Origin: Sphaerisporangium album
GTDB lineage: Bacteria > Actinomycetota > Actinomycetes > Streptosporangiales > Streptosporangiaceae
Length of the DNA: 64,000 bases
Assembly: GCF_003323745.1 (NCBI RefSeq)
Contig: NZ_QOIL01000008.1
Coordinates: 186,001 to 250,000, forward strand
Direction: 5' to 3'
The translations under genes and the position numbers were made by a program. Positions 1-14,933 of the stretch are shown piece by piece. Positions within the stretch are counted from its first letter, which is position 1, and each line of letters opens with the position of its first letter. The notes beneath the pieces are model-generated. The model saw nothing but the letters and a program-made list of their open reading frames with translations, did not search any database and was not told where the DNA came from.

Positions 1-3000
1 CCCGGGTAGCCGGTGAAGGCGCCGGGGTAGACGAAGGCGACGCGGCCGTCGCCGACCGGGCGGCCGGTGCAGTAGCTGCCCGCCGGGGTCGCCCACTCGC
101 CGCCGCCCGCGAGCACGGCCGGCAGGTCGCGCTCGGCGGCGTCCAGCTCGCGGCGCAGGCGGTCCCCGTCGGCGGCGACCAGCACCGCCGTGTAGCGCCG
201 GGACCCGCTGCGCGGCGCCGCCTCGCGGACCAGCTCCCACGGGTCGCGCCCGTGGTCGAGGGCCGAGCGGTACTGGCGGACCAGGTCGGTCATGGTGCCC
301 GCGTCGTCCGCGCTGACCGCGAGCATCAGGTGCCCGGGGGCCTCCCGCCAGTCGGTCTCGACGGCCTTGCCGCGCGTGTCCGCGCCGGCCAGGACGATGT
401 GGGCGGCGGCGTTGCCGCCCGCGAGCGCCCGGCCGTCCCAGGCGGCGACGGCGGCGATCCGGGGCCGGTCGCTCCTGCGGCGCAGGAACGGCGCCGGCTC
501 GCCCGAGACCTCCAGCCGGGTCGGCGGCAGGCCGGCGAGGATCTCGCGCAGCGGCTCCGGCGTCGCGGGCAGCTCGGCGCGGTGCAGCCAGCCCGCCGCG
601 TTGACCAGCGCGGTCAGCACGGACGCCTGCTGGGTGTCGCCCACGAGCGCGGCGGCCCCGCCCACCAGGCAGCCATCGCCGTCCGCCGGGTACGCCCCGG
701 CCAGGTCGGCGGCGACCTCGGCGGGGGACGCCGAGGCGAGCTCCAGGTAGTCCACGTCGCCGACGCCGAGACCGGCGGCCGACAGGCTCGCGCCCGCCGC
801 CGCGGCCAGCGCGGGGCCCGTACCTGCGGCGTCGGAGCGCACCGTTATCGACTCGATGGTGGCGTACACCGTGCGACCGGCCGTGTCACCCGGGCGGGTG
901 ACCACGACGGCCGCGGCGGCGTCGCCGGGCACGGGCGGCAGGCCGCCGCTCAGCTCGGCCAGCGCCGCGCGGGCCGCGACGTTCTCGATGCCTGCCGCCA
1001 GATCCACGCCGCCGACCAGGACCGCCTCCACGGTCGGGTCGAGCAGCAGCAGCGAGGCGACCTCCAGCGCGCGGGCGCCGCCGGTGGCGTCCGCGGCGAC
1101 CGTGAAGGACGGGCCGGTCAGGTTGCGAGAGGACGAGATGCGGCTGGCCATGATGTTGCCGATGTAGCTGAGGACCTCGTTGGCGCCGATCGGGTCGTGC
1201 ACGGCGCCGCGGACGGCGGTCTCCAGCTTGGCCAGGGCGGCCTCGTCCAGGTCCACACCGGCCCTGGCGCACTCGGCGCGCACGTGGGCGCCGATGTCGA
1301 ACCGGGCCCGGTGGGTGTGGGTGCGCGGCTCCAGCTCCATGGAGATGACGACCGCGACCCGGCGCTCGGGAAGCTGGTTCGCGCGCCGCCCGGACTCCCG
1401 CGCGGCGTACCCCGCGTCGGCGAGCGCCTGCTCGGCCGCCTCGAACAGCAGCAGGTGCTGCGGGTTGGCGTGGCCCAGCTCGCCCGGCGGGATGCGGTAG
1501 GTGCGCGCGTCCACGTCGATCGTGTCGGCGTACCCGGCCTTCTCGGCCTGGTCACCGGTGACCGGCGCGGTGTCCGCGTCGGCCAGGCCGTACCAGCGGT
1601 GCCCGGGACGGTCGACCAGCGCGGGCGTGCCGGTGCGGGCCGCGCGCCGCCAGGCCGCGACGTCGGTCAGCGGCCCGGCGCGCAGGCCCAGCCCGACCAG
1701 CGCCATCCGCCCGTCCGCCGGGGCCGTGCCCGGGGCGGTGCCCGCCGCTGTGTCCGTGGCTGTGTCCGTGGCTGTGTCCGTCGTGGCGTTCCCCGAGGGG
1801 AGGACGCCGGCGGCGCGGTCGGTGGTGAGGATCGCGTGGGCGTTGGTGCCGCCGAAGCCGAACGCGGACACGGCGGCCACCCGGTGCTCCGGGTCACGCT
1901 CGACCCGGGGCGCCGGCCAGGGGCGCTCGGTCAGCACGACCCGCTCGGCGGCGGCCCGCGCCTCGGCGGGACGCAGCGGCTCGCCGACGCCCGGCGTCGC
2001 CGGGATCGTCCCGTGCCGCAGCGCCAGGATCGCCTTGAGCATGCTCGTGAAGCCCGCCACGGTCAGCAGGTGGCCGACGTTGGCCTTCACCGAGCCGAGC
2101 GGCGGCACGCCGCCCCGCCCGTCGAAGAACTCCGTCAGGCCGCGCAGCTCGGTGGTGTCGCCGAGCGGCGTGCCGGTGGCGTGGCACTCGATGTAGTCGA
2201 CCTCGGCCGGGTCGATGCCGTGGTCGTCGTAGACCCGGCTGTACGCCTCGACCTGGCCGTCCTTGCGCGGGGTGAGCAGGTGCCCGCCCGCGCCGTCGTT
2301 GCTCAGCCCGATCGGGCCGAGCACCGCGTGGATCCGGTCGCCGTCGCGCCGGGCGTCCGACAGCCGCTTCAGGACGAAGATCCCGGCGCCCTGGCCGGTC
2401 ACGATGCCCTGCGAGCGGCCGTCGAACGGCTGGCTCATCCCGTCGGCGGGGAAGGCCTTGAGGTCGGAGAAGGACAGGTGGATCAGCAGCGGGTCCGGCG
2501 CGCACACCGCGCCGGCCAGCATCACGTCCGCCCGGCCCGTCGACAGGTACCTGCGGGCCAGGGCCAGCGAGTACAACGCGGATGAGCAGGCGGCGTCCAG
2601 CGTCAGCCGGGCGCCGCCCAGACCGAAGGCGTCCGCCACCACCGTGGCCGGAAGGCCGAACGGCCACAGCTCGGCGGGTTCCTCGGCCGCCTCCGGCGAG
2701 GCGGCCTCGGGGAGCTCCAGGCCCGCACGTCGCAGCCCGGCGCTCACCGCCCGCCGGACCAGCGGCACGCAGGAGCGCACCGACGTCTCGGTGGGGAAGG
2801 CGTAGTTGCCCAGGATCACGCCGGTCCGCGCCAAGACCTCCGAGTCCTCGGCGATGCCGGCGTCGGCCAGCGCGCGGCGGGCGGTGTGCAGCGGCCACCG
2901 GACGACCTTGTCCAGCCGGTGCAGCGTGTCCGCCGGGATGCGCAGGCCGGTCAGGTCGATGGGCGGCTCGGTGACGAACCCGCCCCGGGTGGCGGTGACC

Positions 3001-3206
3001 CGGTGGTCCGGGTCACCCCACCCGCCGGGGACGGTCTCGTCCGTGCCGAACATCTCGCGGCCACCGGGGCGACGCAGATCCACCCCGGACCGCAGATTGG
3101 CCCAGAACTGCTCGGGGGTGTCGGCGCCTGGCAGCAGGCAGGCGATCCCGACGATCGCTACGGGTTCCTGTCCAGTGGGATCCGCAACATGCTCTGGCGT
3201 GGACAT
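1..3206 (-). CDS. Pfa-type polyketide/fatty acid synthase subunit, KS-CLF-AT (partial, C-terminus beyond window)
   Basis: The start at 3206 follows a GGATGGAGAG ribosome-binding site. A ketosynthase fills residues about 12-470, with active-site Cys207 in DAACSSA, the ECHATGTP histidine motif and the KANVGH motif. A short Thr-Asp-Ala linker follows. A second ketosynthase-like fold (about 490-950) has ADATGG where the active-site Cys should be, so it looks like a chain-length-factor-like partner. The last visible residues (VAFVYPGAFTGY) look like the opening of an acyltransferase. KS-CLF-AT is the order of the second subunit of polyunsaturated fatty acid synthases. It lies 40 bp after the TE-KS-AT-ACP-KR-DH gene and presumably works with it. 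Its end is not visible, so further domains cannot be excluded. Confidence 0.88.
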   Translation of the reverse strand, partial: MSTPEHVADPTGQEPVAIVGIACLLPGADTPEQFWANLRSGVDLRRPGGREMFGTDETVPGGWGDPDHRVTATRGGFVTEPPIDLTGLRIPADTLHRLDKVVRWPLHTARRALADAGIAEDSEVLARTGVILGNYAFPTETSVRSCVPLVRRAVSAGLRRAGLELPEAASPEAAEEPAELWPFGLPATVVADAFGLGGARLTLDAACSSALYSLALARRYLSTGRADVMLAGAVCAPDPLLIHLSFSDLKAFPADGMSQPFDGRSQGIVTGQGAGIFVLKRLSDARRDGDRIHAVLGPIGLSNDGAGGHLLTPRKDGQVEAYSRVYDDHGIDPAEVDYIECHATGTPLGDTTELRGLTEFFDGRGGVPPLGSVKANVGHLLTVAGFTSMLKAILALRHGTIPATPGVGEPLRPAEARAAAERVVLTERPWPAPRVERDPEHRVAAVSAFGFGGTNAHAILTTDRAAGVLPSGNATTDTATDTATDTAAGTAPGTAPADGRMALVGLGLRAGPLTDVAAWRRAARTGTPALVDRPGHRWYGLADADTAPVTGDQAEKAGYADTIDVDARTYRIPPGELGHANPQHLLLFEAAEQALADAGYAARESGRRANQLPERRVAVVISMELEPRTHTHRARFDIGAHVRAECARAGVDLDEAALAKLETAVRGAVHDPIGANEVLSYIGNIMASRISSSRNLTGPSFTVAADATGGARALEVASLLLLDPTVEAVLVGGVDLAAGIENVAARAALAELSGGLPPVPGDAAAAVVVTRPGDTAGRTVYATIESITVRSDAAGTGPALAAAAGASLSAAGLGVGDVDYLELASASPAEVAADLAGAYPADGDGCLVGGAAALVGDTQQASVLTALVNAAGWLHRAELPATPEPLREILAGLPPTRLEVSGEPAPFLRRRSDRPRIAAVAAWDGRALAGGNAAAHIVLAGADTRGKAVETDWREAPGHLMLAVSADDAGTMTDLVRQYRSALDHGRDPWELVREAAPRSGSRRYTAVLVAADGDRLRRELDAAERDLPAVLAGGGEWATPAGSYCTGRPVGDGRVAFVYPGAFTGYP
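1747..1782. repeat. three 12-bp tandem repeats in KS-CLF linker
   Basis: The unit gctgtgtccgtg occurs three times, the last with one change. On the coding strand it encodes a (Thr-Asp-Thr-Ala)-like run between the ketosynthase and CLF domains. It is an in-frame linker microsatellite, not a regulatory site. Confidence 0.8.
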
Positions 3207-3246
3207 GGCTCTCCATCCGCGGGATATGTCAACGTGCGTGGGGCAT

Positions 3247-6200
3247 TTAGTGCGCGCCGCCGCTGTCGCGGCAGATCGCCTGGACCCCGGCGAACCGGGT
3301 GAGGACCCGTCCGTCGCCGTCGCAGGCGCTGACCGTGCAGCGCACCATGGGGCCGCTGACGGTCACCTCATCGACCACGATGAGGAAGGGCTCGCCCGCG
3401 GGGATCGGCGCGTGCGTCTCGGCGTGGCCGATGCCGGCCGGAAGGCTGGCCTGGCCGGTGTGCCGGCGCACCCACACCAGGACGGCCTGCAGCAGCAGGT
3501 CGGCCAGGACGGGGTCGTAGTCGCCGGTGCCGTACGCGCCGGCGGCGAACGAGGTGCCCGGCAGCTCGGCCCGCAGGACCATGCGCCGTCCCGGGTCCAG
3601 CACCCGGCGAAGACCGCGCAGGCCGTCGCCGTGGAAGAGGGTGCCGTCCTCGTAGGCGGTGCAGGGCTCGCCGGCGTCGAGGCCGGGCAGCCCGGCCAGC
3701 GGTGCCGGCGCGGAGCCCGCGGGCTCCACGACCGCCCTGTAGCGGGGCCGGCCGTTCTCGTCGCGCACGTCGACCTTGGTGCCGGTCGCGTGCGGCGTCA
3801 GGGTGAACCGCAGCTTCGCGGGGGCCTCGGCGTCGAAGACCACGCCCTTGAGGACGGTGAAGTCCCGCGCGCCGCCCGGCTTCGCTCCGGTCACCTCCTC
3901 CGCCGCGGCGAGGATCCCGCCCAGCGCCACCGTGGCGGGCAGCACCGCGTGCTCCCCGATCCGGTGGTCGGCGAGGACCGGCTCCCCGGCCACCGCGCCG
4001 AGGTCCCGGGTCACCGTGACGCCCTTGGCGGGCAGCGCGGGGGGCTCGGCCTCCGACAGGGGCTTGTCCGGCCCGATGACGCAGACCAGGTCGGCCGAAC
4101 GCTCGGCGTCGAACTGCTCGGCGAACATCCGCGCGCCGGTGCGCAGCGGGATCAGATCCACGCCGCGCTCCTTGAAGAGCCGGGCGAGCTCCGGAGTGAC
4201 CATGCCGCCGTCCCAGGCGCCCCAGTTGATCGAGGTGACCCGGGTGCCGGGGTTGGCCCCCCGCAGACGGGACGCGATCCGGTTGAGCGCCTCGTTGGCC
4301 ATGGCGTAGTCGGACTGTCCCTGGTTGCCGAAGAACCCGGCGACCGAGGAGAAGAGCACGACGTGGCGCAGCCTGGCGGGGTCCAGAGCGGCGAGCACAC
4401 CGGCCAGGCCGGCGAGCTTGGTGCCGAGCACCCGGTCGATGTCCTGCGGACGCTTGTCCACGATGAGCTGGTCGGCCAGCACACCGGCGCCGTGCACCAC
4501 CCCGACGACGCGGTCGCGGTAGGCGGCCAGCGCCGTCCGCACCGCCGCCGGGTCGGTGACGTCGACCGGCACGTACGTGGCGTGCGCTCCGGCCTCGGTC
4601 ACCTCCGCCAGGGTCTGGCGGATCTCCCGCTGCGCCTTCAGCTCCCGGAACCGGGGCTCGATGTCGCGCGGGGTCACCTTCAACCCCTCGGCCTTGAGGG
4701 CCGCGGCGATGGCCGGCTTGAGCTTGTCCAGCGGCACGTCCCGCGCCCACGCCGGCTCGTCGGCCAGCGGGGTGCGGCCGAGCAGCAGCACGCCGGTGCG
4801 GTGCCGCTTGGCGAGGTCGATGACGCACGCGGCGGTGACGCCGCGACCGCCGCCGGTCACCACGAGCAGCTCGTCCGCGCCGGGCGGGGCGATCCGCCCT
4901 TCACCGGCGGGGGCGCTCTCGCCCAGGGTCGTCGTCCAGCGGGCGCCGTCGGAGGTGTGGCCCACCTCCCGCAGCGCGACGCGGGCGTCGTACAGCTCGG
5001 CCAGGACGATCTCGCCCACCCGCTCGTACGGCAGCTCGGCCGCGACGTCGATGGCGCGGCAGAACACCGTGGGGGCCTCGATGGCCAGGGTCTTCACCAG
5101 GCCGGAGACACCGCCGAGCGTGACGGCCGCCAGCCCCGCCTCGCCGGTGTCGCCGGGGGACGGGGTGACGCCGAGGCGTCCGTCCAGGCGGGACACGGTC
5201 ACGAAGGCGGCGCGGCCGTTGCGGGCCGACGCCTCCAGGGTGCGCTGGGTGTCGCGGGCCAGCATCGCCGCGTCGCGCAGCGCGGTCAGGGCGGTGGCGG
5301 TGCCGTCGACCTGCTCGGGAGCCACGTACAGCACCACGTCCGGCCCCTCGTCGAGGGCGGCGCCGGGCTCGGCGGTACGCCATCCGGCGCCGCGCAGGGC
5401 ATCGGTCAGCGCGTCGGCGAGCGGGCCGCCCGCCCCGGCCACCAGGGCGACCGGAGCGTGACGGTAGGCGTCCTCCAGCCGGTCGGCGGCCGGCAGCCGG
5501 GTCAGCCCGGCCTGCCAGCGGTCGATCCGCGGGAGGGTTTCAGCTTTTGGGCCGTTCACCACCTCCGCCCCGTTCGGCGCGGAAGCCGATCCGGCGACGA
5601 ATCCGATGATGTCGTTCAGCGTTCGCAGCTCGGCCAGGCGTTCGGGGCTCACCGAGGGGGAGCCGGGGAAGGACTCGCGGAGGGCGCCCATGATCTCCAC
5701 GCGCTTGATGGAGTCGATGCCGAGGTCGGCCTCGACGTCCATGGAGGGGTCGAGCATGTCGGTGGGGTAGCCGGTCTTCTCGGCGACGATGGTGAGCAGG
5801 GTGGTGCGGACGGTCTCGGCGTCGTTGCCGGCCGGGGCGGCCGCGACCGGAGCCGGAGCCTGCACGGGGACCTGCACAGGGGCGGGCGCTGGGGCCGGGG
5901 CGGCGACGGCGGCTCCGGCGACGAATCCGATGATGTCGTCGAGCGTCCGCAGCTCGGCCAGGCGCTCGGGGCTCACCGAGGGGGAGCCGGGGAAGGACTC
6001 GCGGAGGGCGCCCATGATCTCCACGCGCTTGATGGAGTCGATGCCGAGGTCGGCCTCGACGTCCATGGAGGGGTCGAGCATGTCGGTGGGGTAGCCGGTC
6101 TTCTCGGCGACGATGGTGAGCAGGGTGGTCCGGACGGTCTCGGCGTCGTTCCCGGCCGGAGCGGGCGCGACCGGAGCCGGGGCCGGAGCCGGGGCGGCGA

Positions 6201-9200
6201 CGGTGACGGCGACCGTGACGGCGGGCTCGGCGACGGGGGCCGGGGCCACGGGCGCCGGAGCGACGGGGGCCGGGGCGGGGACGGGGGCGGGCGCCTGGGT
6301 GGGAACCGCGAACGTCGCCGGAGCGGCGGGGGCGGCCGTGGTCGCGAAACCGGTCTCGGTCTCCTCGGTCCAGCCCGGGCGGGACATGGTGCCGATGGCG
6401 CGCATCTCGTAGGCCGGAGCGACCGCCTGCGGCAGGCTCGGCGCCGCCATGTCGCCGCCGACCGTACGGCCGGGAGCGATCATGCTGTTCTCGAGCTGGG
6501 CGAAGCTGCGCAGCACCTCGCTGGCCCAGACGTGGCTCTGCCCGATGGCCAGGCTGTGCTCGGTGACGGCGGTGATGCCCGCGATCGTGTTCTCCGACGG
6601 CCCGGCGTCCTGGCGGCTGCCCTCCTCGACGAGGTTGGTGAGCCGCTCGGAGAGGCGGAGCTGGCTGTGCAGGTAATCGCCGTGCATGGCGAGGTGGCTG
6701 GCGGCGATGGCGCCGACGCTCGGGACCGTGCTCGGAGCGTGCCCGTTCCCGTTGTGGCCATTGCCGTTGTGACCGTTGGTGCCGTGCCCGTTGGTGGTCT
6801 GGCCGTTGGTGCCGTGCCCGTTCGTGCCGTGCCCGTTCGTGGTGTGGCCGTTCGCGGCGTGCCCGTTGGAGTGGGCGACGCCGTTGCCCGCGTGTCCGTT
6901 GCTCACGTGTCCGTTCCCCGTGTCCGCGTTGCCGTTGTGTCCGGTGGACGGCTCGGCCGGGGCGCCGCTCGCGGCCACCCCTTCGACCTGGTAGCCGTTG
7001 TCGAGTGCCTCCTGGTACGCCTGGCGGCGCGCCTCTGGCACGTAGTTCACGCCGTTCAAGTCGATCGTCATCCCCTTGGCGGGCGGCTGCTCGGCCGCCG
7101 TCGCCTGGTACCGGTTGAAGCCGGCCAGCGGCAGGCCGAGGACGGCCAGACGCGCGGCGAGCTGCTTGAGAGCGAGGTCGCCGTCGCGACCGGGCCCGGC
7201 GTCGGCCGAGAGCACGACGACGTCGGGGCGGTCGGCGAGGATCCGGCGGACCAGGCCGGTCAGGACCTTCTTCGGCCCGAACTCGACGAAGACCCGGAAC
7301 CCGTCCTGGTACATCTGCTCCACCCTGGGCGCGAAGGCGACCGGGTTGGCGAGCTGCTGGACGAGGATCCGCGCGTTCTCGTCGGTGTTGGCGCCGTACC
7401 TGGCGCCGTCGGTGTTGGCGTAGACCTCGATGGCGGGCTCCGCGACGACCGTCGAGCCGACGGCGGCGCCGAACCTGTCCACCGCGTGCGTGACGTACCG
7501 GGTGTGGAAGGCCGCCGCGACCGGCAGCGGGCGGGCCGTGACCCCGGCCGCCTCGCACGCCTTGACGAAGGCCGCGACCGCGTCACGGCCGCCGCCGACC
7601 ACCGTCTGGTCGGGCGCGTTGATGTTGCAGACCACGACGTCGGGGTGACCGTCGAGCAGGCCCTCGACCGTCGGCACGTCGGCGGAGACGGCGGCCATCG
7701 TGCCCGGGTCGTCCCCGGTGGCCTCGTTCCGCTCGGCCATCGCCGCGCCCCGCGCCCGGGCGAGCCCGAACATCTGCTCGCGGCTCAGGCTGCCCGCAGC
7801 CCAGAGCGCGGTCACCTCTCCGAAGCTGTGACCGAGCGCGCCCTCCGCGGTGAGGCCGAGGCCGGTGAGGTAGGCGTACTGCCCGGCTGAGACCGCGCCG
7901 ATGGCGGGCTGCGCGTAGTCGGTGCGCCGCAGGGCGTCCTCCTGCGCGCGGCGGGTGTCGTCGTCGAACGCGGGCGGCGGGAAGACCACCCGTCCCAGCG
8001 GCTCGGCGCCGGCGAAGTGCGCCGCCGCCGCGTCGAACGCCTCCCGCACCGGCGGGATCGCCATCGCCGCCTGCCCGGCCATGCCGACGTACTGGCTGCC
8101 CTGGCCGGCGAACAGCGCGCCCACCTTGCCCGGCACCGCCGCGGCACGGCGGTAGTACGCGCCGCCGGGAAGCTCGAACGCCTCCTCGGCCGGGTCGCCG
8201 GCGAGGCGCCGGACGGCCTGTTCGCGCAGGCGGTCGAGCTCGGCGTCGTCCCGGGCGACCACGGCGAGCCGCGCGTGCCCGGCCGGGACCGGCGTGGAGT
8301 CCTCCAGCCCGCGCGGGTTCTCCTCGACCTGCTCCAGCAGGGCCTTCGCGTCCTCGCCGTGCCACACGTGCACCCGGGCCGTCCGGTGCAGCACCGTCAG
8401 GCCGGTGCCGCTCGGGTCGTGCTCCTCCAGCACGCAGTGGAAGTTGGTGCCGCCGAAGCCGAACGACGAGACCGCCGCCCGGCGCAGGGGCCGCTCCGGC
8501 TCGGTGATCCACGGCCGCGTCCGGGTGTTCACGTAGAACGGCGAGGACTCGAACTCCATCGCGCCGCGGGGCGTGGTCACGTTGATCGTGGGCGGCAGCA
8601 GCTTGTGGTAGAGCGCCAGGGACGACTTGATCATCCCGGCGGCGCCGGCCGCGGCCTTGGTGTGCCCGATCTGGCTCTTGACGCTGCCGAGGGCGACGTC
8701 CTGGCGGTTCGCGCCCGCGGCCATGAACACCTCGCGCAGGGCGCTGACCTCGGTGAGGTCGCCGACCGGCGTGCCGGTGCCGTGGCACTCGACCAGGCCG
8801 ATCTGCTCGGGGCCGAAGCCCGCGTCCTCGTAGGCCCGGCGCAGGGCGACCATCTGGCCCTCCTTGCGGGGGGCGTAGATGCTCTTGTACCGGCCGTCGC
8901 TGGAGGTGCCGATCCCGCGCAGCACCGCGTAGATGCGGTCCCCGTCGCGCTCGGCGTCCTCAAGACGCTTCATCGCGAGCATGCCGATGCCCTCGCCGAT
9001 CAGCGTGCCGTCGGCGGCCTCGTCGAACGGCCGGATGTCCCCCACCTTGGAGAACGCCGGGGTCTTCGAGAAGCACAGGTACATCAGGATGGTGTTCTCG
9101 GCGTCGCAGCCGCCGGTGATCATCAGGTCGGCGCGGCCGGAGATGAGCTCCGACGCCGCCATGTGCACGGCGGCCAGCGAGCTGGCGCAGGCGGCGTCCA

Positions 9201-10776
9201 GGGTGCAGTTCGTGCCGCCCAGGTCGAAGCGGTTGGCGATGCGGCCGGCCACGACGTTGCCGAGCATGCCGGGGAAGGAGTGCTCCTCCCAGGGGGCGAA
9301 CGCCTTGACGAACTTGGCGGCGATCTCCTCGGCGTCCCGCTCGGTCAGGCCGCAGCTGCGGACGACCTCCTTGAGGACCGGCGTCTGCAGGCGGGTCGCC
9401 AGCGGCTGGGTCAGCGAGTTCGCGCCGGTGATGCCGAGCACCACGCCGGTGCGCTCCGGCCTGTACCACGTGGAGCCGGTCGCGCCTGCGTCGGCCAGCG
9501 TCTGCTTGGCCACCACCAGGCTGAGCAACTGCAGCACGTCGGTGACCTCGAGGGTGTTCGGCGGCAGGCCGAACTCCAGCGGGTTGAACGGCACGGTCGG
9601 GACGAACCCGCCGCGCTTGGCGTACGTCTTGTCCGGCGCCTTGGGGTCGGGGTCGTAGTGGTCCTCGATGCGCCAGTGGGTCTCGGGCACGTCTTCGATG
9701 CAGTCGACGGCGTCGACCACGTTGCCCCAGAACTCGCTCAGGTCGCCGGAGCGCGGGAAGAGCGCCCCGAGCCCGACGATGGCGATGGGGGTGTCCCCCG
9801 TACGCCGGGCCTTGGTGTTGTCGCTGTCCATGACACGGTCCGTTCCGGTTGAGAGCGTCGCGTTGTCGGCGGCGGGCCGCGGGTCGCCGGTGACCCGCGC
9901 CGGTCGGGCGCGGTCGCCCAGCAGTTCGAGCGCGGCCCCGGCGATCCGGTCCACCGCCTCGCGGTCGTGCAGCATCGTGTAGTGGTCGCCGGGGCACCCC
10001 AGCACCGTCAGGTCCTCGGCGAGCCCGGCCCAGCCGAGCGGGTCGGCCACGTCCAGCAGGCCGCGCTCGGGCCGGACCAGGACGACCGGCACCGGCACCC
10101 GGCGCGGCTCGTAGGCCTGGGCCAGCCGGTTGTTGCGCACCAGCCCCTGCAGGTAGGTGTCGAGCACCTTCCGCAGGCCCGGCAGCGTCGTGTCCGGCCG
10201 CAGCGCCCCGTGCTCGCGCGCCGAGTCGAGCACGGCGCGCAGGCCCTGCTCCCGGTCCTTCGGAATCGCCCCGCCGACCGGGATCTCGACGCCCCTGCGG
10301 GCGCCCAGGTACATGGCGAACCAGCGCAGCACCACGTCGTCGTCGAGGTCGCCGTCCAGCCGGGTGTACTCGGGCACCGGCGCGATCGTGTCCAGGGCCA
10401 GCAGCGCCGCCGGCCGCTCGGACTCCTCCAACAGCCCGGCGAGTTCGAGCGCCACCACGCCGCCGAAGGACCACCCCGCCAGGCACCACGGCCGGTCGAG
10501 CAGCCCCCGCCGGCGCAGCTCGCCGGCCGTCCGCTCGGCCAGCGCCGGGATCGACGTGGCCGGCGCGTCGCCGCGCAGGGCCGCCTCGAAGTACTCCGGC
10601 ACGTGCTCCAGGTTGACCACGTGCAGGGCCGCGCCGGGCGCCAGCGCGGACGCCAGGTCCGCGTAGACGGTGGCCGGCAGCGCGCCCGGGTGCACCAGGA
10701 TCACCGACGGCGCGTCCGCGGGCGCGGACCCGACGCGGGTGACCGTCTGGGGCGGCTTTCTATCGCGCCGTCGCAT
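3247..10776 (-). CDS. Pfa-like iterative synthase with N-terminal thioesterase (TE-KS-AT-ACP-ACP-KR-DH)
   Basis: This is a 2,509-residue multidomain synthase. An alpha/beta-hydrolase thioesterase occupies residues 1-300 (Ser103 in GWSFGG, His in PGDHY). The ketosynthase spans about 328-770 (Cys530 in DAACASS, ECHGTGTP, KSQIGH). The acyltransferase spans about 890-1190 (Ser984 in GHSFGE). An Asn-Gly-His repeat linker follows, then two ACPs (Ser1581 and Ser1689 in GIDSIKR), a ketoreductase at about 1920-2190 (TGGGRGV, SSVAG, YAMANEA) and a hot-dog dehydratase-like C-terminus (DHRIGEHAVLPA). KS-AT-ACPs-KR-DH matches the PfaA subunit of polyunsaturated-fatty-acid and secondary-lipid synthases. 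The chosen ATG has GGAG 10 bases upstream and overlaps the ACP gene by 17 bp. The TE is in frame with the KS without a stop. An internal ATG at 9831 could start a TE-less form. The product cannot be named from sequence. Confidence 0.9.
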   Translation of the reverse strand: MRRRDRKPPQTVTRVGSAPADAPSVILVHPGALPATVYADLASALAPGAALHVVNLEHVPEYFEAALRGDAPATSIPALAERTAGELRRRGLLDRPWCLAGWSFGGVVALELAGLLEESERPAALLALDTIAPVPEYTRLDGDLDDDVVLRWFAMYLGARRGVEIPVGGAIPKDREQGLRAVLDSAREHGALRPDTTLPGLRKVLDTYLQGLVRNNRLAQAYEPRRVPVPVVLVRPERGLLDVADPLGWAGLAEDLTVLGCPGDHYTMLHDREAVDRIAGAALELLGDRARPARVTGDPRPAADNATLSTGTDRVMDSDNTKARRTGDTPIAIVGLGALFPRSGDLSEFWGNVVDAVDCIEDVPETHWRIEDHYDPDPKAPDKTYAKRGGFVPTVPFNPLEFGLPPNTLEVTDVLQLLSLVVAKQTLADAGATGSTWYRPERTGVVLGITGANSLTQPLATRLQTPVLKEVVRSCGLTERDAEEIAAKFVKAFAPWEEHSFPGMLGNVVAGRIANRFDLGGTNCTLDAACASSLAAVHMAASELISGRADLMITGGCDAENTILMYLCFSKTPAFSKVGDIRPFDEAADGTLIGEGIGMLAMKRLEDAERDGDRIYAVLRGIGTSSDGRYKSIYAPRKEGQMVALRRAYEDAGFGPEQIGLVECHGTGTPVGDLTEVSALREVFMAAGANRQDVALGSVKSQIGHTKAAAGAAGMIKSSLALYHKLLPPTINVTTPRGAMEFESSPFYVNTRTRPWITEPERPLRRAAVSSFGFGGTNFHCVLEEHDPSGTGLTVLHRTARVHVWHGEDAKALLEQVEENPRGLEDSTPVPAGHARLAVVARDDAELDRLREQAVRRLAGDPAEEAFELPGGAYYRRAAAVPGKVGALFAGQGSQYVGMAGQAAMAIPPVREAFDAAAAHFAGAEPLGRVVFPPPAFDDDTRRAQEDALRRTDYAQPAIGAVSAGQYAYLTGLGLTAEGALGHSFGEVTALWAAGSLSREQMFGLARARGAAMAERNEATGDDPGTMAAVSADVPTVEGLLDGHPDVVVCNINAPDQTVVGGGRDAVAAFVKACEAAGVTARPLPVAAAFHTRYVTHAVDRFGAAVGSTVVAEPAIEVYANTDGARYGANTDENARILVQQLANPVAFAPRVEQMYQDGFRVFVEFGPKKVLTGLVRRILADRPDVVVLSADAGPGRDGDLALKQLAARLAVLGLPLAGFNRYQATAAEQPPAKGMTIDLNGVNYVPEARRQAYQEALDNGYQVEGVAASGAPAEPSTGHNGNADTGNGHVSNGHAGNGVAHSNGHAANGHTTNGHGTNGHGTNGQTTNGHGTNGHNGNGHNGNGHAPSTVPSVGAIAASHLAMHGDYLHSQLRLSERLTNLVEEGSRQDAGPSENTIAGITAVTEHSLAIGQSHVWASEVLRSFAQLENSMIAPGRTVGGDMAAPSLPQAVAPAYEMRAIGTMSRPGWTEETETGFATTAAPAAPATFAVPTQAPAPVPAPAPVAPAPVAPAPVAEPAVTVAVTVAAPAPAPAPVAPAPAGNDAETVRTTLLTIVAEKTGYPTDMLDPSMDVEADLGIDSIKRVEIMGALRESFPGSPSVSPERLAELRTLDDIIGFVAGAAVAAPAPAPAPVQVPVQAPAPVAAAPAGNDAETVRTTLLTIVAEKTGYPTDMLDPSMDVEADLGIDSIKRVEIMGALRESFPGSPSVSPERLAELRTLNDIIGFVAGSASAPNGAEVVNGPKAETLPRIDRWQAGLTRLPAADRLEDAYRHAPVALVAGAGGPLADALTDALRGAGWRTAEPGAALDEGPDVVLYVAPEQVDGTATALTALRDAAMLARDTQRTLEASARNGRAAFVTVSRLDGRLGVTPSPGDTGEAGLAAVTLGGVSGLVKTLAIEAPTVFCRAIDVAAELPYERVGEIVLAELYDARVALREVGHTSDGARWTTTLGESAPAGEGRIAPPGADELLVVTGGGRGVTAACVIDLAKRHRTGVLLLGRTPLADEPAWARDVPLDKLKPAIAAALKAEGLKVTPRDIEPRFRELKAQREIRQTLAEVTEAGAHATYVPVDVTDPAAVRTALAAYRDRVVGVVHGAGVLADQLIVDKRPQDIDRVLGTKLAGLAGVLAALDPARLRHVVLFSSVAGFFGNQGQSDYAMANEALNRIASRLRGANPGTRVTSINWGAWDGGMVTPELARLFKERGVDLIPLRTGARMFAEQFDAERSADLVCVIGPDKPLSEAEPPALPAKGVTVTRDLGAVAGEPVLADHRIGEHAVLPATVALGGILAAAEEVTGAKPGGARDFTVLKGVVFDAEAPAKLRFTLTPHATGTKVDVRDENGRPRYRAVVEPAGSAPAPLAGLPGLDAGEPCTAYEDGTLFHGDGLRGLRRVLDPGRRMVLRAELPGTSFAAGAYGTGDYDPVLADLLLQAVLVWVRRHTGQASLPAGIGHAETHAPIPAGEPFLIVVDEVTVSGPMVRCTVSACDGDGRVLTRFAGVQAICRDSGGAH
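5594..6167. repeat. near-identical tandem ACP-coding repeat, 324-bp period
   Basis: The two ACP segments (about 5594-5843 and 5918-6167) are almost identical at DNA level over about 250 bp, with only a handful of changes, while the Ala/Pro-rich linkers between them diverge. This indicates recent duplication or ongoing gene conversion between carrier domains. Confidence 0.9.
6742..6960. repeat. Asn-Gly-His repeat linker (minisatellite)
   Basis: This stretch on the coding strand encodes about 70 residues built from Asn-Gly-His, Thr-Asn-Gly-His and Gly-Asn-Gly units between the acyltransferase and ACP regions of the synthase. The DNA shows recurring gtgcccgttg-type units. It is low-complexity, in frame and likely flexible. 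It is not a CRISPR array, because the units are very short and lie inside a coding frame. Confidence 0.85.
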
Positions 10777-11050
10777 CGCGCTGCTTCTCCACGATGTAGC
10801 CGGCAAGCTCGTTGATGGTGGGGTGGTACCACAGTGCGGTCGTTTCCAGTTCGAAACCGAGCCAGTTCTCCAATTCACCGGAAAGCACGAGCGCCTCGGT
10901 GGAGTCGAGGTCGAACTCGTCGAAGTACTGGTCGGAGTCCACCTGGTCGGCCGTCACGCCGAGCCGGTGGGCGATCTTCCCGACCAGCCATTCACGGACC
11001 TCGTTCTCGGTCAGTTCCGCGCCGGAGCCGGCAGTCACCTGGTTAGTCAT
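10760..11050 (-). CDS. stand-alone acyl carrier protein
   Basis: This 96-residue protein has the acidic ACP fold, with the phosphopantetheine serine as Ser50 in DLDSTEAL. DST replaces the usual DSL, as in several stand-alone ACPs. It sits directly upstream of the large synthase and overlaps its start by 17 bp, so the two are co-translated. It may load a starter unit, or carry an acyl chain to or from the synthase or to the neighbouring FAD enzyme. That role is inferred from position only. Confidence 0.85.
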   Translation of the reverse strand: MTNQVTAGSGAELTENEVREWLVGKIAHRLGVTADQVDSDQYFDEFDLDSTEALVLSGELENWLGFELETTALWYHPTINELAGYIVEKQRDATAR

Positions 11051-11111
11051 CGCATTCCTCGCTACGGACCGTTTCCGTACGTGTTGTGGAAAAGAGAGGC
11101 CGCTGGACGGC

Positions 11112-12419
11112 CTAGTCGCCCTTCGGGCCGATTCCCGCCGTGCGCCGGACGGCGTCCGCCGCCGCCGCGCCGGAATCGAACGCCGATTCGTGGCTGCCGA
11201 TGATGTCGATTCCCATCTTCCTGGAGTGGAAATAGGAGCCGGCGAACTTGATGCGCGAATCGTCGTTGTTGATCGAGCGGATGTCGCGCTGGAGTGCGCG
11301 CACCTCGGTCGTGAAGACGGGGTGGCGGTAGGCCATTTCCCGGATCACGGCGTCCTCGCGGACCGGCAGCGGGCAGTCCAGCGTGACGAAGTAGTCCTTC
11401 TCCGCCCGCAGGTGCTGCAGTTCGTTGAGGTAGTAGACGACCCAGGACTGCTGGCCCTCGCCCTCGCCGACGCGGCCGTAGTTCCAGCTGCGCCACCGTT
11501 CCCGGTCGGCGGGCATCACCGACGCGTCGCTGTGCAGGATCGCCCGGGTGTCGTGGTAGCGGATCACGTCGAGCCGCCGCTGGGCCGCGGTGGGCTCGGC
11601 GAGCATGCCGAGCGCGTCGTCGGCGTGGGTGGCCAGGACGACGTGGTCGAAGCGCTCGGGGCCGTCGGGACCGTACAGCACCACGTGGTCGCCGTCCTGC
11701 CTGACCTGCTTCACCGCCGCGTCGACCCGCACGTCCACCCCGGAGCGGGCGAACCGGTCGGCCACCCGGCGGACGTAGGAGATGCTGCCTCCGGTGACCG
11801 TGCGCCAGGGCGCGGTCTGGCCGCCGAGTCCTTCGTGGCCGTGCGCGAAGAAGAAGGCGATGACCGTGCTGGCCGGCATCTCCCAGATCCGCTCGGCCGG
11901 CACCGACCAGGCGGCCGTGGCGATCAGCACCACGAAGCCGTACCTGAACGCGGCACTGTAGCCGTTGCGGTCGAGGTACTCCCCGAGGGGAATGTCGGCG
12001 CGCCGCCGGACGAAGTCGCGCGGGGCCTCGGACATGAATCGCCGCGCCTCGCGCCACAGGTCGCTGAAATCGGCGTCGTAGCGCTGCCGGATCTGCTCCT
12101 CGTTGAGCTCGAAATCCTCCGAGACGTAGCTGCGTCCACGGTCCAGGTCGAAGAAGCAGAATCGCCCTGGGTGGTCCTGCGTCGGTACCCCGAGTTCACC
12201 GAAGAACGCGGTGAGCATGGGATAGTGCGCCTCGTTGTACACGATGAAAGCCGTGTCGAGCCCGAGGGTCGTGTCGCCCTCGCGCACTTCGACCGTGTTG
12301 GCGTGGCCTCCCAATCTGGAATCGGCCTCGAACAATGTCACGCGCGCGTCGTCGCGCAGATGATACGCGGTGGACATCCCCGCTATCCCCGCACCGACGA
12401 CCGCCACTCGAGGGGTCAC
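11112..12419 (-). CDS. FAD-dependent amine-oxidase-like oxidoreductase (COG2907-type)
   Basis: This 435-residue flavoprotein has the N-terminal dinucleotide-binding motif VVGAGIAG (Gly9-Gly14), followed by FEADSRLGGH and a C-terminal FAD-contact region (IKFAGSYFHS...GSHESA). Proteins of this class are often encoded near fatty-acid-modifying enzymes, and some act on acyl chains. The GTG start has GGGAGGG six bases upstream. The gene lies 61 bp before the ACP gene on the same strand, so it is likely the first gene of the synthase operon. A plausible role is oxidation or desaturation of the synthase product. The substrate is unknown. Confidence 0.8.
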   Translation of the reverse strand: MTPRVAVVGAGIAGMSTAYHLRDDARVTLFEADSRLGGHANTVEVREGDTTLGLDTAFIVYNEAHYPMLTAFFGELGVPTQDHPGRFCFFDLDRGRSYVSEDFELNEEQIRQRYDADFSDLWREARRFMSEAPRDFVRRRADIPLGEYLDRNGYSAAFRYGFVVLIATAAWSVPAERIWEMPASTVIAFFFAHGHEGLGGQTAPWRTVTGGSISYVRRVADRFARSGVDVRVDAAVKQVRQDGDHVVLYGPDGPERFDHVVLATHADDALGMLAEPTAAQRRLDVIRYHDTRAILHSDASVMPADRERWRSWNYGRVGEGEGQQSWVVYYLNELQHLRAEKDYFVTLDCPLPVREDAVIREMAYRHPVFTTEVRALQRDIRSINNDDSRIKFAGSYFHSRKMGIDIIGSHESAFDSGAAAADAVRRTAGIGPKGD

Positions 12420-12555: not shown

Positions 12556-12590
12556 AAAGTGACCGGCCCACAGTGCGGACCGGTCACTTT
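12556..12590 (-). terminator. hairpin after ECF sigma gene
   Basis: Perfect 11-bp arms (AAAGTGACCGG and CCGGTCACTTT) enclose a 13-nt loop. Read on the minus strand the hairpin is followed by a short T/G-rich run. It lies between the sigma factor and the FAD oxidoreductase, separating the two transcription units. Confidence 0.6.
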
Positions 12591-12725: not shown

Positions 12726-13367
12726 TCATGCGACCAGGGCCGGTCGCCGCTGGACGCTGTCGCGGAGGCGACGCAGGATCCGGTTGCGGGTCGGGCCGAT
12801 CGAGCCGCGGGGAATGCCCAGCGCGGCGCTGATCTCGTCGTAGCTCAACGCCGGCTCGTGCAGCAACATGGCCAGCAGCGCTTGGTGGTGCTTGCTCAGA
12901 CCGCGGAACGCTTCGAGCATGCGCGGGTCCTGCCACCGGTCGACGACGGTGTCCTCGACCGACACGGTCTCGTCGGGCCAGTCGTCGAAGGGCGCGTGGT
13001 CGCCCACGGGCACGTGCCGGCGACTGCGCTCGATGAACTTGATCGCTTCTCTGCGGGTGATGGTCACCAGCCAGGACGCGAACTTCGCGGGTTCGCGCAA
13101 CCTTTCGATGTTCTCCACCACGCGCAGCCAGGTGAGCTGGCAGACGTCTTCGCAGTCCGCGCTTCGTAATCGAAACGATCGGGCCACGGACCAGACCACG
13201 GGGGTGTACAGCTTGATGAGCTCGCTCCAGGCCCGCTGGTCGCCCGCCTGGCATGCCGCCGTGAGCATCTCCCGCGGGCACGGGCGGACCGCTCCGGCGT
13301 CGCCCATCTGAGCCGCATCCCCGTGCACGTCTGTCACTCGCCTGGTTTCCTGAACGGCCGCATCCAC
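12726..13367 (-). CDS. ECF-family RNA polymerase sigma factor
   Basis: This is a 213-residue sigma factor with region 2 at about residues 40-110 (DVCQLTWLRVVENIERL) and a region 4 helix-turn-helix at about 150-205 (LSYDEISAALGIPRGSI). The GTG start is fixed by a perfect AGGAGG eight bases upstream. No anti-sigma gene is adjacent. It lies upstream of the synthase operon on the same strand with a hairpin between, and divergent from a TetR gene. It may control the synthase cluster, but this is positional inference only. Confidence 0.88.
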   Translation of the reverse strand: MDAAVQETRRVTDVHGDAAQMGDAGAVRPCPREMLTAACQAGDQRAWSELIKLYTPVVWSVARSFRLRSADCEDVCQLTWLRVVENIERLREPAKFASWLVTITRREAIKFIERSRRHVPVGDHAPFDDWPDETVSVEDTVVDRWQDPRMLEAFRGLSKHHQALLAMLLHEPALSYDEISAALGIPRGSIGPTRNRILRRLRDSVQRRPALVA

Positions 13368-13467: not shown

Positions 13468-13554
13468 ACTTGACGAGATGAACCGGACAGGGGTGGATCA
13501 TTCGCTACGGTGCCCGAAGGATCCGCGCGAACAACCGAGCCGTGGAGGGTCGCG

Positions 13555-14271
13555 ATGACTAGTTCGCCACGCCGTCAGAGGGTCCGCGACGCTACGCTGC
13601 GGGAACTGATCTCCGTGAGCCGCGAGATCCTGACCAGTCAGGGGGTCGACGGCCTGACGATCCGCGCGGTGGCGCGCGAGATGGGCATGACGCCACCGGG
13701 CATCTACCGCTACTTCGACAGCCATCGCAAGCTCATGGACGCGGTCATCATCGACACCCTCGAAGAGCTGACCGAGTACATCAGCTCGACGATCTCCGAG
13801 GTCGACAAGGCCGACACCGCGGGCCGCCTCATCGTCGCCAGCCGCGCGCTGCGCCACTGGGCCGTCGAACACGCCCAGGAGTTCCAGCTCGCCCTGGTCG
13901 CCTCCTCTCCCGAGGAGGAGGACGAGTCGGTGGGGGAGGCGCGCCGCCAGGTGGGCGGCCTCTTCGGGGACGTCTTTGTCGACGTCTGGCACGACTACGG
14001 GCTGTCGGCGTCCGTCCCCGGCACGATCTCCGCCGACACCGAGGCGCTGGCCGACCGTCTGCTCGAACGGCTGCAGATCCCGCTGCCGTCCACCCAGGCA
14101 GCGGTCACCTTCACCCGCTGCTGGCTGAGGCTGTTCGGCGTGGTGTGCGTCGAGTCGCTGGGCCTGGCCCGCGCCATGGGGGATCATGGAGGCGCGCTGT
14201 TCGAGGCGGAGCTCGCCGACCTCGTCCGCATGCTCGGTCTGCCAGAGTCCGTCCTGAACACCGCTCGCTGA
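13555..14271 (+). CDS. TetR-family transcriptional regulator
   Basis: This is a 238-residue regulator. An N-terminal helix-turn-helix (LTIRAVAREMGMTPPGIYRYF) at about residues 35-55 is followed by a variable ligand-binding domain with a TetR_C_13/WHG-like look. The ATG at 13555 is preferred over upstream starts because GGAGGG lies five bases before it. It diverges from the ECF sigma factor. It may regulate itself and the adjacent synthase cluster. The ligand is unknown. Confidence 0.88.
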   Translation: MTSSPRRQRVRDATLRELISVSREILTSQGVDGLTIRAVAREMGMTPPGIYRYFDSHRKLMDAVIIDTLEELTEYISSTISEVDKADTAGRLIVASRALRHWAVEHAQEFQLALVASSPEEEDESVGEARRQVGGLFGDVFVDVWHDYGLSASVPGTISADTEALADRLLERLQIPLPSTQAAVTFTRCWLRLFGVVCVESLGLARAMGDHGGALFEAELADLVRMLGLPESVLNTAR

Positions 14272-14516: not shown

Positions 14517-14933
14517 ATGCCCCCCCTGCAGCTCAGCCAGGAGACCCAGTACATCGCCGGTGCCATTCTGCTGACGATCGTGACCATAGAGTTCGGAGGC
14601 TGGTTCCTCACCAGGATCGTCCGCGGTGAGGTGCCCATGACCCCCTTCCAGCAGGCCTTCGCCCGAGCCGGCCACGCCCACGCCGGGGTGCTGGTCATCC
14701 TCAGCCTGGTGTGCCTGATCTTCGTCGACGCCACCGGCCTCGGCGGCGTCGCCGTCTGGGTCGCCCGCCTCGGCGTCCCCGTCGCCGCCATCCTCATGCC
14801 CGCCGGCTTCTTCTTGTCGTCCCTGGGCCGCGACGTCACCAAGCCCAACCGCCTGATGATCCTCCTGTGGATCGGCGCCCTGTGCCTGGCGGCAGGCGTC
14901 CTCACCCTCGGCATCGGCCTGCTGACAAGCTGA
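14517..14933 (+). CDS. small integral membrane protein of unknown function
   Basis: This 138-residue protein has four predicted membrane helices (about residues 10-28, 52-70, 78-100 and 112-135). A conserved-looking GHAHAG segment lies at the start of helix 2. AGGAGA three bases before the ATG supports the start. It resembles small four-helix proteins of the hydroxylaminobenzene-mutase-like type, but I do not assign an activity. It stands alone and converges on the GlxA-like gene. Confidence 0.75.
   Translation: MPPLQLSQETQYIAGAILLTIVTIEFGGWFLTRIVRGEVPMTPFQQAFARAGHAHAGVLVILSLVCLIFVDATGLGGVAVWVARLGVPVAAILMPAGFFLSSLGRDVTKPNRLMILLWIGALCLAAGVLTLGIGLLTS

Follow-up and report, generated by a model that had tools for sequence, protein, structure and literature searches.

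A predicted polyunsaturated-fatty-acid-type synthase operon with linked flavoenzyme, free acyl carrier protein and acyl-CoA-dehydrogenase-like genes in Sphaerisporangium album

Introduction

The canonical pfaABCDE clusters of Shewanella, Colwellia and Photobacterium encode polyunsaturated fatty acid (PUFA) synthases, in which PfaA consists of ketosynthase (KS), acyltransferase (AT), several acyl carrier protein (ACP), ketoreductase (KR) and dehydratase (DH) domains, PfaC carries a KS, a chain length factor (CLF) and FabA-like dehydratases, and PfaD is present as well. Here we describe a Pfa-like operon of Sphaerisporangium album (genome of 9.3 Mb in 62 contigs), found at the left end of a 64,000-nt stretch, hereafter the window, that spans positions 186001-250000 of contig NZ_QOIL01000008.1 (C61); the contig sequence beyond window position 1 was fetched to complete the operon. 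It shares all the above features with pfaABCDE, but its KS domains form separate clades and its PfaB-like AT is fused into a PfaBC protein. In addition, it has a PF00975 thioesterase (TE), a free ACP, two acyl-CoA dehydrogenases (ACADs), a UfaD-like flavin adenine dinucleotide (FAD) enzyme, an exporter and its own acetyl-CoA carboxylase (ACC) genes.

Fourteen types of Pfa-like synthases with uncharacterised products have long been catalogued in many bacteria, including actinobacteria (PMC3098273). One of them, Type C of Shulse and Allen from Desulfatibacillum, resembles the present operon in its fused pfaBC (KS-CLF-AT-DH2) and in pfaD at the 3' end; it belongs to another phylum, is compared here by its description only, and the passages that describe it mention no TE, free ACP, ACAD or FAD partner (PMC3098273). 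In its passages on fused pfaBC clusters of Streptomyces, a 2026 survey of hybrid PUFA synthases names those accompanied by nonribosomal peptide synthetases (NRPSs) of the metallophore type and not this cluster (PMC13291983). A TE next to pfaA has been described elsewhere, as orf6 in marine clusters and as a TE domain in Schizochytrium (PMC4882568).

Two further systems resemble the additional genes. Lipopeptide cassettes of the composition fatty acyl-AMP ligase (FAAL)-ACAD-ACAD-ACP, such as RthH-I-J-K of rotihibin and that of ramoplanin, also combine tandem ACADs of about 590 aa with a discrete ACP, the likeness being measured on three other opened loci of this kind. The rotihibin ACAD pair has been proposed to desaturate the lipopeptide tail, with ramoplanin as the precedent (PMC8552735). 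Unlike these cassettes, the S. album operon has no FAAL or NRPS, its chain would come from the PUFA synthase encoded in the same operon, and its ACP gene lies upstream of the PfaA gene, not beside the ACADs. The second system is Rhodobacter furan fatty acid synthesis, where UfaD, of the same superfamily as the FAD enzyme studied here, is a demonstrated acyl desaturase making a conjugated diene (PMC7380195).

Composition of the operon

The genes form a compact operon on the minus strand, which on the extended contig reads, in the order of transcription, extracytoplasmic function (ECF) sigma factor, FAD enzyme, free ACP, TE-PfaA, PfaBC, PfaD, ACAD1 and ACAD2. Export and supply genes follow: a phosphopantetheinyl transferase (PPTase, PF01648), a major facilitator superfamily (MFS) exporter, a small monooxygenase-like PF13826 protein, AccDA, a biotin carboxyl carrier protein (BCCP) and a biotin carboxylase (BC). 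From the sigma gene to that of BC, the operon covers C61:170095-199367. Successive genes from PfaD to the MFS exporter share 4-bp overlaps with the starts chosen here. PfaD has 534 aa, ACAD1 598 aa and ACAD2 590 aa, the latter two being acyl-CoA-dehydrogenase-like.

As judged from gene content, domain order, intact motifs and family membership, this is a complete PUFA-type (Pfa-like) synthase operon. The initial annotation, made on the window alone, had proposed a Pfa-like cluster without an assigned product, and this description holds: PfaA passes the curated cut-off of TIGR02813 (1750.8 bits against 1010.1) and PfaD that of TIGR02814 (627.6 bits against 449.25), while the open-licence literature searched yielded no published description of the gene set, which is weak evidence.

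The PfaA open reading frame (ORF) occupies positions 3247-10878 (about 2500 codons), with a likely ATG start at 10776, so that the gene, taken as 3247-10776, overlaps the 3' end of the ACP gene. Its domain order is TE-KS-AT-ACP-ACP-KR-DH. The TE match (PF00975) covers ORF residues 59-181 (10336-10704) with GWSFGG at 10476; the KS (8578-9792, PF00109/PF02801) has the active site DAACAS, and the AT (7234-8115, PF00698) the motif GHSFGE. The two tandem ACP domains (5596-6141) are seen as two PF00550 stretches, a match to an ACP model and the motif LGIDSIKRVE at 6048 and 5724; they are followed by the KR (4210-4863, PF08659) and by a polyketide synthase (PKS)-type dehydratase (3280-4020, PF21089 and PF14765 above cut-off). 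In PfaA of each of the cluster-bearing congeners G006 and G008, a similar motif pattern gives only one such match. The linker between the AT and the ACPs is an Asn-Gly-His repeat (6736-6942), and a shorter, similar repeat is found in PfaA of G006 and G008.

The PfaBC gene runs leftwards from 3206, so the window holds its 5' part (1-3206: KS-CLF and the start of the AT region, by Pfam and structure matches), and it ends at C61:181818, giving 2462 aa with KS-CLF-AT and two FabA-like dehydratases. The best evidence for the first part is the solved protein 6riw ('ORF10'), a PfaC KS-CLF, to which residues 14-871 show a match at E 2.7e-141. The other PfaC-type features are also present, namely PF07977 in two stretches and the CHFxxDP motif twice, and the CLF has AADATGG in place of the KS cysteine motif, an equivalence that is our reading. 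Motifs are present in the TE, in the KS, AT and KR of PfaA, and in the KS, AT and both FabA-like dehydratases of PfaBC.

Upstream of PfaA lie the genes of the free-standing ACP (10760-11050, 96 aa; PF00550, 45.4 bits) and of the FAD-dependent oxidoreductase of the amine-oxidase superfamily (11112-12419, 435 aa; PF01593, 78.3 bits). The initial set of FAD enzyme, ACP, TE-KS-AT-ACP2-KR-DH and KS-CLF-AT is present on the minus strand, except that the last AT lies almost entirely outside the window, with its GYSLG motif at about position -259. Extension beyond position 1, which had been advised, confirmed this AT and added the two FabA-like dehydratases, PfaD, both ACADs, the PPTase, the MFS exporter, the PF13826 protein and the ACC genes.

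Conservation and distribution

The order TetR, sigma, FAD, ACP, PfaA, PfaBC, PfaD, ACAD1, ACAD2, PPTase, MFS, AccDA, BCCP, BC is the same in G006 and G008, with 71-94% amino acid identity, and the PF13826 protein is absent from both blocks. Since PfaA and PfaD exceed curated cut-offs and the block is kept in these two congeners, the cluster is not a chance assembly. This cluster type occurs in three of the 11 genomes of the genus, the S. album genome included; a fourth PfaD match in the genus is of a different kind (46% identity).

A sample of 396 genomes from the phylum contains at least seven with a PfaD match of E 1e-100 or better, the count being a lower bound, as three candidates were scored per genome; apart from S. 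album itself, no match in this sample exceeds 52% identity. Because few of these genomes match, and at low identity, this kind of cluster seems to be rare. When named genomes were scanned with the PfaD alignment, at least 573 relatives were obtained; the best 80 loci, which were kept, include Streptomyces, Kitasatospora, Lentzea, Saccharopolyspora, Catenulispora, Actinopolyspora and Actinoalloteichus. Some relatives are on plasmid records, namely those of S. globosus, Streptomyces sp. NBC_00503, S. albogriseolus (pSALBX2), S. cattleya and Rhodococcus opacus.

Partners were compared over 25 related regions. Nineteen of them have the FAD enzyme, the free ACP and ACAD1 together, and 17 of these 19 also have ACAD2 (two rows below 40% identity, in which the query matched the ACAD1 gene, were excluded from the count). 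The remaining six regions, from Nocardia pseudobrasiliensis, Saccharopolyspora indica, Amycolatopsis acididurans, S. cattleya, R. opacus and G021, lack both FAD and ACAD1. The free ACP follows the same division: it matches at 59% or more in every FAD-bearing region, and at most at 28-29%, in two, among the six FAD-less ones. The regions of N. pseudobrasiliensis and A. acididurans are incomplete upstream of PfaA, and the absence of FAD there rests on a whole-genome search, in which neither gave a strong orthologue and Amycolatopsis gave a paralogue of 39% identity. Of the 21 genomes covered by this search, 17 have a strong FAD orthologue (50-68%) and one more has a fragment of 101 residues. The position of the FAD gene varies: it precedes the ACP gene in the subclade of S. 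album and lies downstream of ACAD2 in the Streptomyces/Kitasatospora subclade.

Over the 19 loci, distances between FAD, ACAD1 and ACP sequences correlate with those of PfaD (Mantel r 0.93, 0.96 and 0.92, respectively; none of 5000 permutations reaches these values), a linkage that may come partly from shared organism phylogeny.

The TE is in frame with the KS in S. album, G006 and G008, that is, in 3 of the 19 TE-bearing regions; in the other 16 it lies in another frame (14) or is separated by a stop (2). Several draft PfaA genes are split, hence the lack of fusion in drafts may partly be an assembly matter, although two annotated plasmids show separate genes. The in-frame fusion is confined to the genus of S. 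album. The TE fusion and the FAD enzyme had initially been considered unusual partners of a pfa operon. Since FAD is present in 19 of the 25 regions and TE-pfaA adjacency is known elsewhere, neither is an oddity of this strain, and what stands of that view is the genus-specific in-frame fusion.

Ketosynthase phylogeny

The tree of PfaA KS domains was built from 48 rows, two long rows of the initial 50 being left out. The actinobacterial sequences form a 25-row clade (support 100/99), within which the S. album KS belongs to a 12-row subclade (100/99), while the Shewanella, Colwellia, Photobacterium, Psychromonas and cyanobacterial rows, as well as the single enediyne row, are outside. The PfaBC KS tree, made by a quick method from 42 rows, has an actinobacterial clade of 20 rows, with 99 in the Shimodaira-Hasegawa-like approximate likelihood ratio test (SH-aLRT), that comprises the 19 FAD-bearing loci and L044, a locus of a metagenome-assembled genome (MAG). 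In four FAD-less relatives, the sole match to the PfaBC KS is a KS placed among PfaA-type sequences.

Thus, neither KS falls inside the marine PUFA, cyanobacterial or enediyne clades, and we know of no product for members of either actinobacterial clade; the marine genera are taken here as PUFA producers. The KS phylogeny had been named as the analysis that could overturn the initial proposal by placing both domains in a clade with a known product, and it did not do so. The comparison is not exhaustive, because no row of the trees has had its product checked. An enediyne synthase is rejected, as the PfaA KS is far from the annotated enediyne row and no enediyne companion families were found among the operon genes.

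ACADs, free ACP and FAD enzyme

The two ACADs are the best clue to the function of the cluster. Plasmid relatives of ACAD2 outside this cluster type were opened in Streptomyces sp. NBC_01244, Streptomyces sp. NBC_00963 and Burkholderia glumae, and all three loci are FAAL-ACAD-ACAD-ACP cassettes adjoining NRPS or condensation genes. The first ACAD of these cassettes shares 36-37% identity with ACAD2, and their ACPs share 33-35% with the free ACP. The scan of the operon genes gave no match to families of enoyl-CoA hydratases, glycerol acyltransferases, acyl-AMP ligases or NRPSs. A beta-oxidation operon as the setting of the ACADs is rejected, hydratase and hydroxyacyl-CoA dehydrogenase families being absent from the same genes.

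In their tree the 19 cluster FAD enzymes group together (SH-aLRT 100), split into two subclades that resemble those of the KS tree (one paralogue with a stop was left out). Relatives outside the cluster are 34-40% identical to the enzyme of the operon and occur in a recurrent context. In alphaproteobacterial plasmids all three opened loci (of 140 matching records) adjoin DUF1365, two of them also having CMAS and two having sigma-ChrR, and a DUF1365 or CMAS neighbour was found for all four actinobacterial paralogue loci scanned (eight were fetched). This context, FAD with DUF1365 and often CMAS or sigma-ChrR, is presumably the layout of the Rhodobacter UfaD operon. Unlike the latter, the operon genes of the S. 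album cluster include neither DUF1365 nor CMAS, and its FAD enzyme belongs to the separate clade of 19. By superfamily and by the operon context of its relatives, the best reading of the cluster enzyme is that it is UfaD-like.

Proposed pathway and alternatives

On balance we lean towards reading the cluster as a stand-alone operon whose product is a secreted fatty acyl compound rich in double bonds. AccDA, BCCP and BC would supply malonyl-CoA, from which TE-PfaA, PfaBC and PfaD, acting as an iterative PUFA-type synthase, would assemble, on the tandem ACPs, a long chain bearing several double bonds. Once complete, this chain would pass to the free ACP, most likely by means of the PfaB-like AT. 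PfaB can serve as a terminal acyltransferase, and off-loading to a soluble ACP has been proposed and is unconfirmed (PMC12895367). On the free ACP, ACAD1 and ACAD2 may introduce double bonds close to the carboxyl end, in the way proposed for the lipopeptide-cassette pair, the PUFA synthase taking the role played there by the acyl-AMP ligase, and the UfaD-like enzyme may introduce one in conjugation with a double bond already in the chain. The fused TE would then free the product, presumably as an acid, and the MFS protein would export it; this protein is an EmrB-type efflux transporter (TIGR00711 above cut-off), and release and export are suggested by the presence of an efflux-type MFS and a TE in the operon. 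The ECF sigma factor and the TetR regulator would control the operon.

We put forward more tentatively, as one possibility, the complete scheme in which a PUFA synthase feeds a discrete ACP and the chain is oxidised by an ACAD pair with Asp in place of Glu and by a UfaD-like flavoenzyme, yielding a secreted conjugated polyene acid; this pathway would be previously undescribed. To our knowledge, polyene acids with conjugated bonds added to a PUFA skeleton are not a chemical class known from actinobacteria.

Several observations weigh against the preferred reading as a stand-alone operon. The PfaB-like AT (residues 999-1409 of PfaBC, with the GYSLG motif) scores 101.5 bits against TIGR02816, below the cut-off of 144.3. 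In classical ACADs the catalytic base is a Glu, and alignment to solved ACADs places Asp at this position in all 19 ACAD1 and all 17 ACAD2 orthologues. The first ACAD of the three opened cassettes has Asp here as well, while the second has His, unlike ACAD1 of our cluster. ACAD2 was not found in the Saccharopolyspora rosea and Actinoalloteichus regions, where the query matches the ACAD1 gene, and no TE match was seen in the Catenulispora region. Other neighbours are variable among the 19 regions: the PPTase is present in nine, the MFS (at 45% or more) in 15 and ACC genes of this kind in five. To these should be added the possible share of organism phylogeny in the correlated distances, and the best solved-structure match of the FAD enzyme, discussed below.

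First among the alternatives, and in our view unlikely, is an ordinary pfa cluster making a membrane PUFA similar to eicosapentaenoic or docosahexaenoic acid, with only a loose link to its FAD, ACAD and MFS neighbours. The synthase is indeed complete, having PKS-type and FabA-type dehydratases and PfaD, and in the midpoint-rooted PfaBC KS tree the actinobacterial clade stands beside a 14-row group that includes marine PfaC sequences (SH-aLRT 87). Nevertheless, FAD, free ACP and ACAD1 travel with the synthase over 19 regions, and no FAD, ACP or ACAD match was found in 11 non-actinobacterial loci (L069-L079) within at most 10 kb on each side of PfaD, a span that leaves the stretch before pfaA uncovered; the TE and the efflux-type MFS, in turn, indicate release and export.

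It is also unlikely that the cluster makes only the acyl tail of a larger molecule, a lipopeptide or an aryl-lipid, completed by enzymes coded elsewhere. Such a role would agree with the ACAD pair and the ACP, both of the lipopeptide-cassette kind, and with the cluster of Streptomyces sp. NBC_00503, which adjoins genes for a salicylate synthase, a KSIII, an AMP-binding protein and a carrier protein. However, neither an acyl-AMP ligase nor an NRPS is among the operon genes scanned, and C61:150001-250000 has, by a crude GC-based gene call, no gene longer than 1000 aa outside the cluster, with the exception of one ORF that is antisense to PfaD/ACAD1 and has no Pfam match. The neighbours of the NBC_00503 plasmid cluster (L125, 9585-19398) also include an isochorismatase; the whole is possibly a hybrid aryl-lipid pathway.

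Finally, the FAD enzyme could be an amine or amide oxidase or a double-bond isomerase, so that the product would bear nitrogen or be merely isomerised; we consider this quite improbable, for the non-cluster relatives opened sit in lipid-modification neighbourhoods and no aminotransferase, amidotransferase or adenylation families were found among the operon genes scanned, although the top solved match is the amine oxidase LkcE (E 1.7e-21), which leaves some chance of nitrogen chemistry, and fatty-acid isomerases exist in the same superfamily.

The cluster type is sharply defined and, in the genus of S. album, self-contained, with its own PPTase and malonyl-CoA supply, so that its expression as a single unit should be feasible. 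Under the preferred reading, an operon for a secreted, highly unsaturated acyl compound, it would illustrate the gain of tailoring desaturases by PUFA synthases, and may offer unusual catalysts, namely ACADs whose base position is occupied by Asp and a putative UfaD-like desaturase alongside a PUFA synthase.

Regulation and genomic context

The first gene of the conserved block (12726-13367, minus strand) encodes the ECF-type sigma factor (PF04542; TIGR02937 above cut-off), kept in both cluster-bearing congeners. Divergent from it is the gene of the TetR-family regulator (13510-14271, plus strand; PF00440), with 74-75% identity in G006 and G008 and 38% in Actinopolyspora. The region between the sigma and FAD genes contains a 35-bp near-perfect palindrome (12556-12590; 17-nt arms, 88% complementary), a possible operator. 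The paired site is also found in G006 and G008, and in none of the other 22 related regions; being restricted to this genus, it is ruled out as a family-wide operator.

A 138-aa protein without a Pfam match is encoded at 14517-14933 on the plus strand; copies with 56-71% identity are present at Actinopolyspora, at the MAG locus L044 and in G021, and it was not found in the G006 and G008 regions. An AraC gene at 15-16 kb is rejected as part of the cluster, since it is not near the cluster in G006 or G008.

Small monooxygenase-like proteins (PF13826, DUF3291) recur near the clusters: the PF13826 protein of S. album has 34-37% matches at the SW4 and Actinopolyspora loci, and DUF3291 is found in S. 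globosus and NBC_00503, with three further cases that score at the cut-off or slightly under it.

A glutamine-synthetase-like gene (C61:167883-169427) adjoins the cluster end in the three cluster-bearing congeners. We reject it as a cluster part and judge it a neighbour, because it is also present in five congeners without the cluster; the place may be a fixed insertion or loss site.

A PfaD copy elsewhere in the same genome (G000:C9:200905-202308; L036, L196) is rejected as a second such cluster. It is 47% identical and has one in-frame TGA, and its 36-kb surroundings contain a 33% KS-level match alone and no FAD or ACAD match; probably, this PfaD-like gene belongs to another PKS type.

Further to the right, window positions 32122-53974 are partly collinear with Nonomuraea gerenzanensis, with 83% identity over 39% of a 24-kb query.

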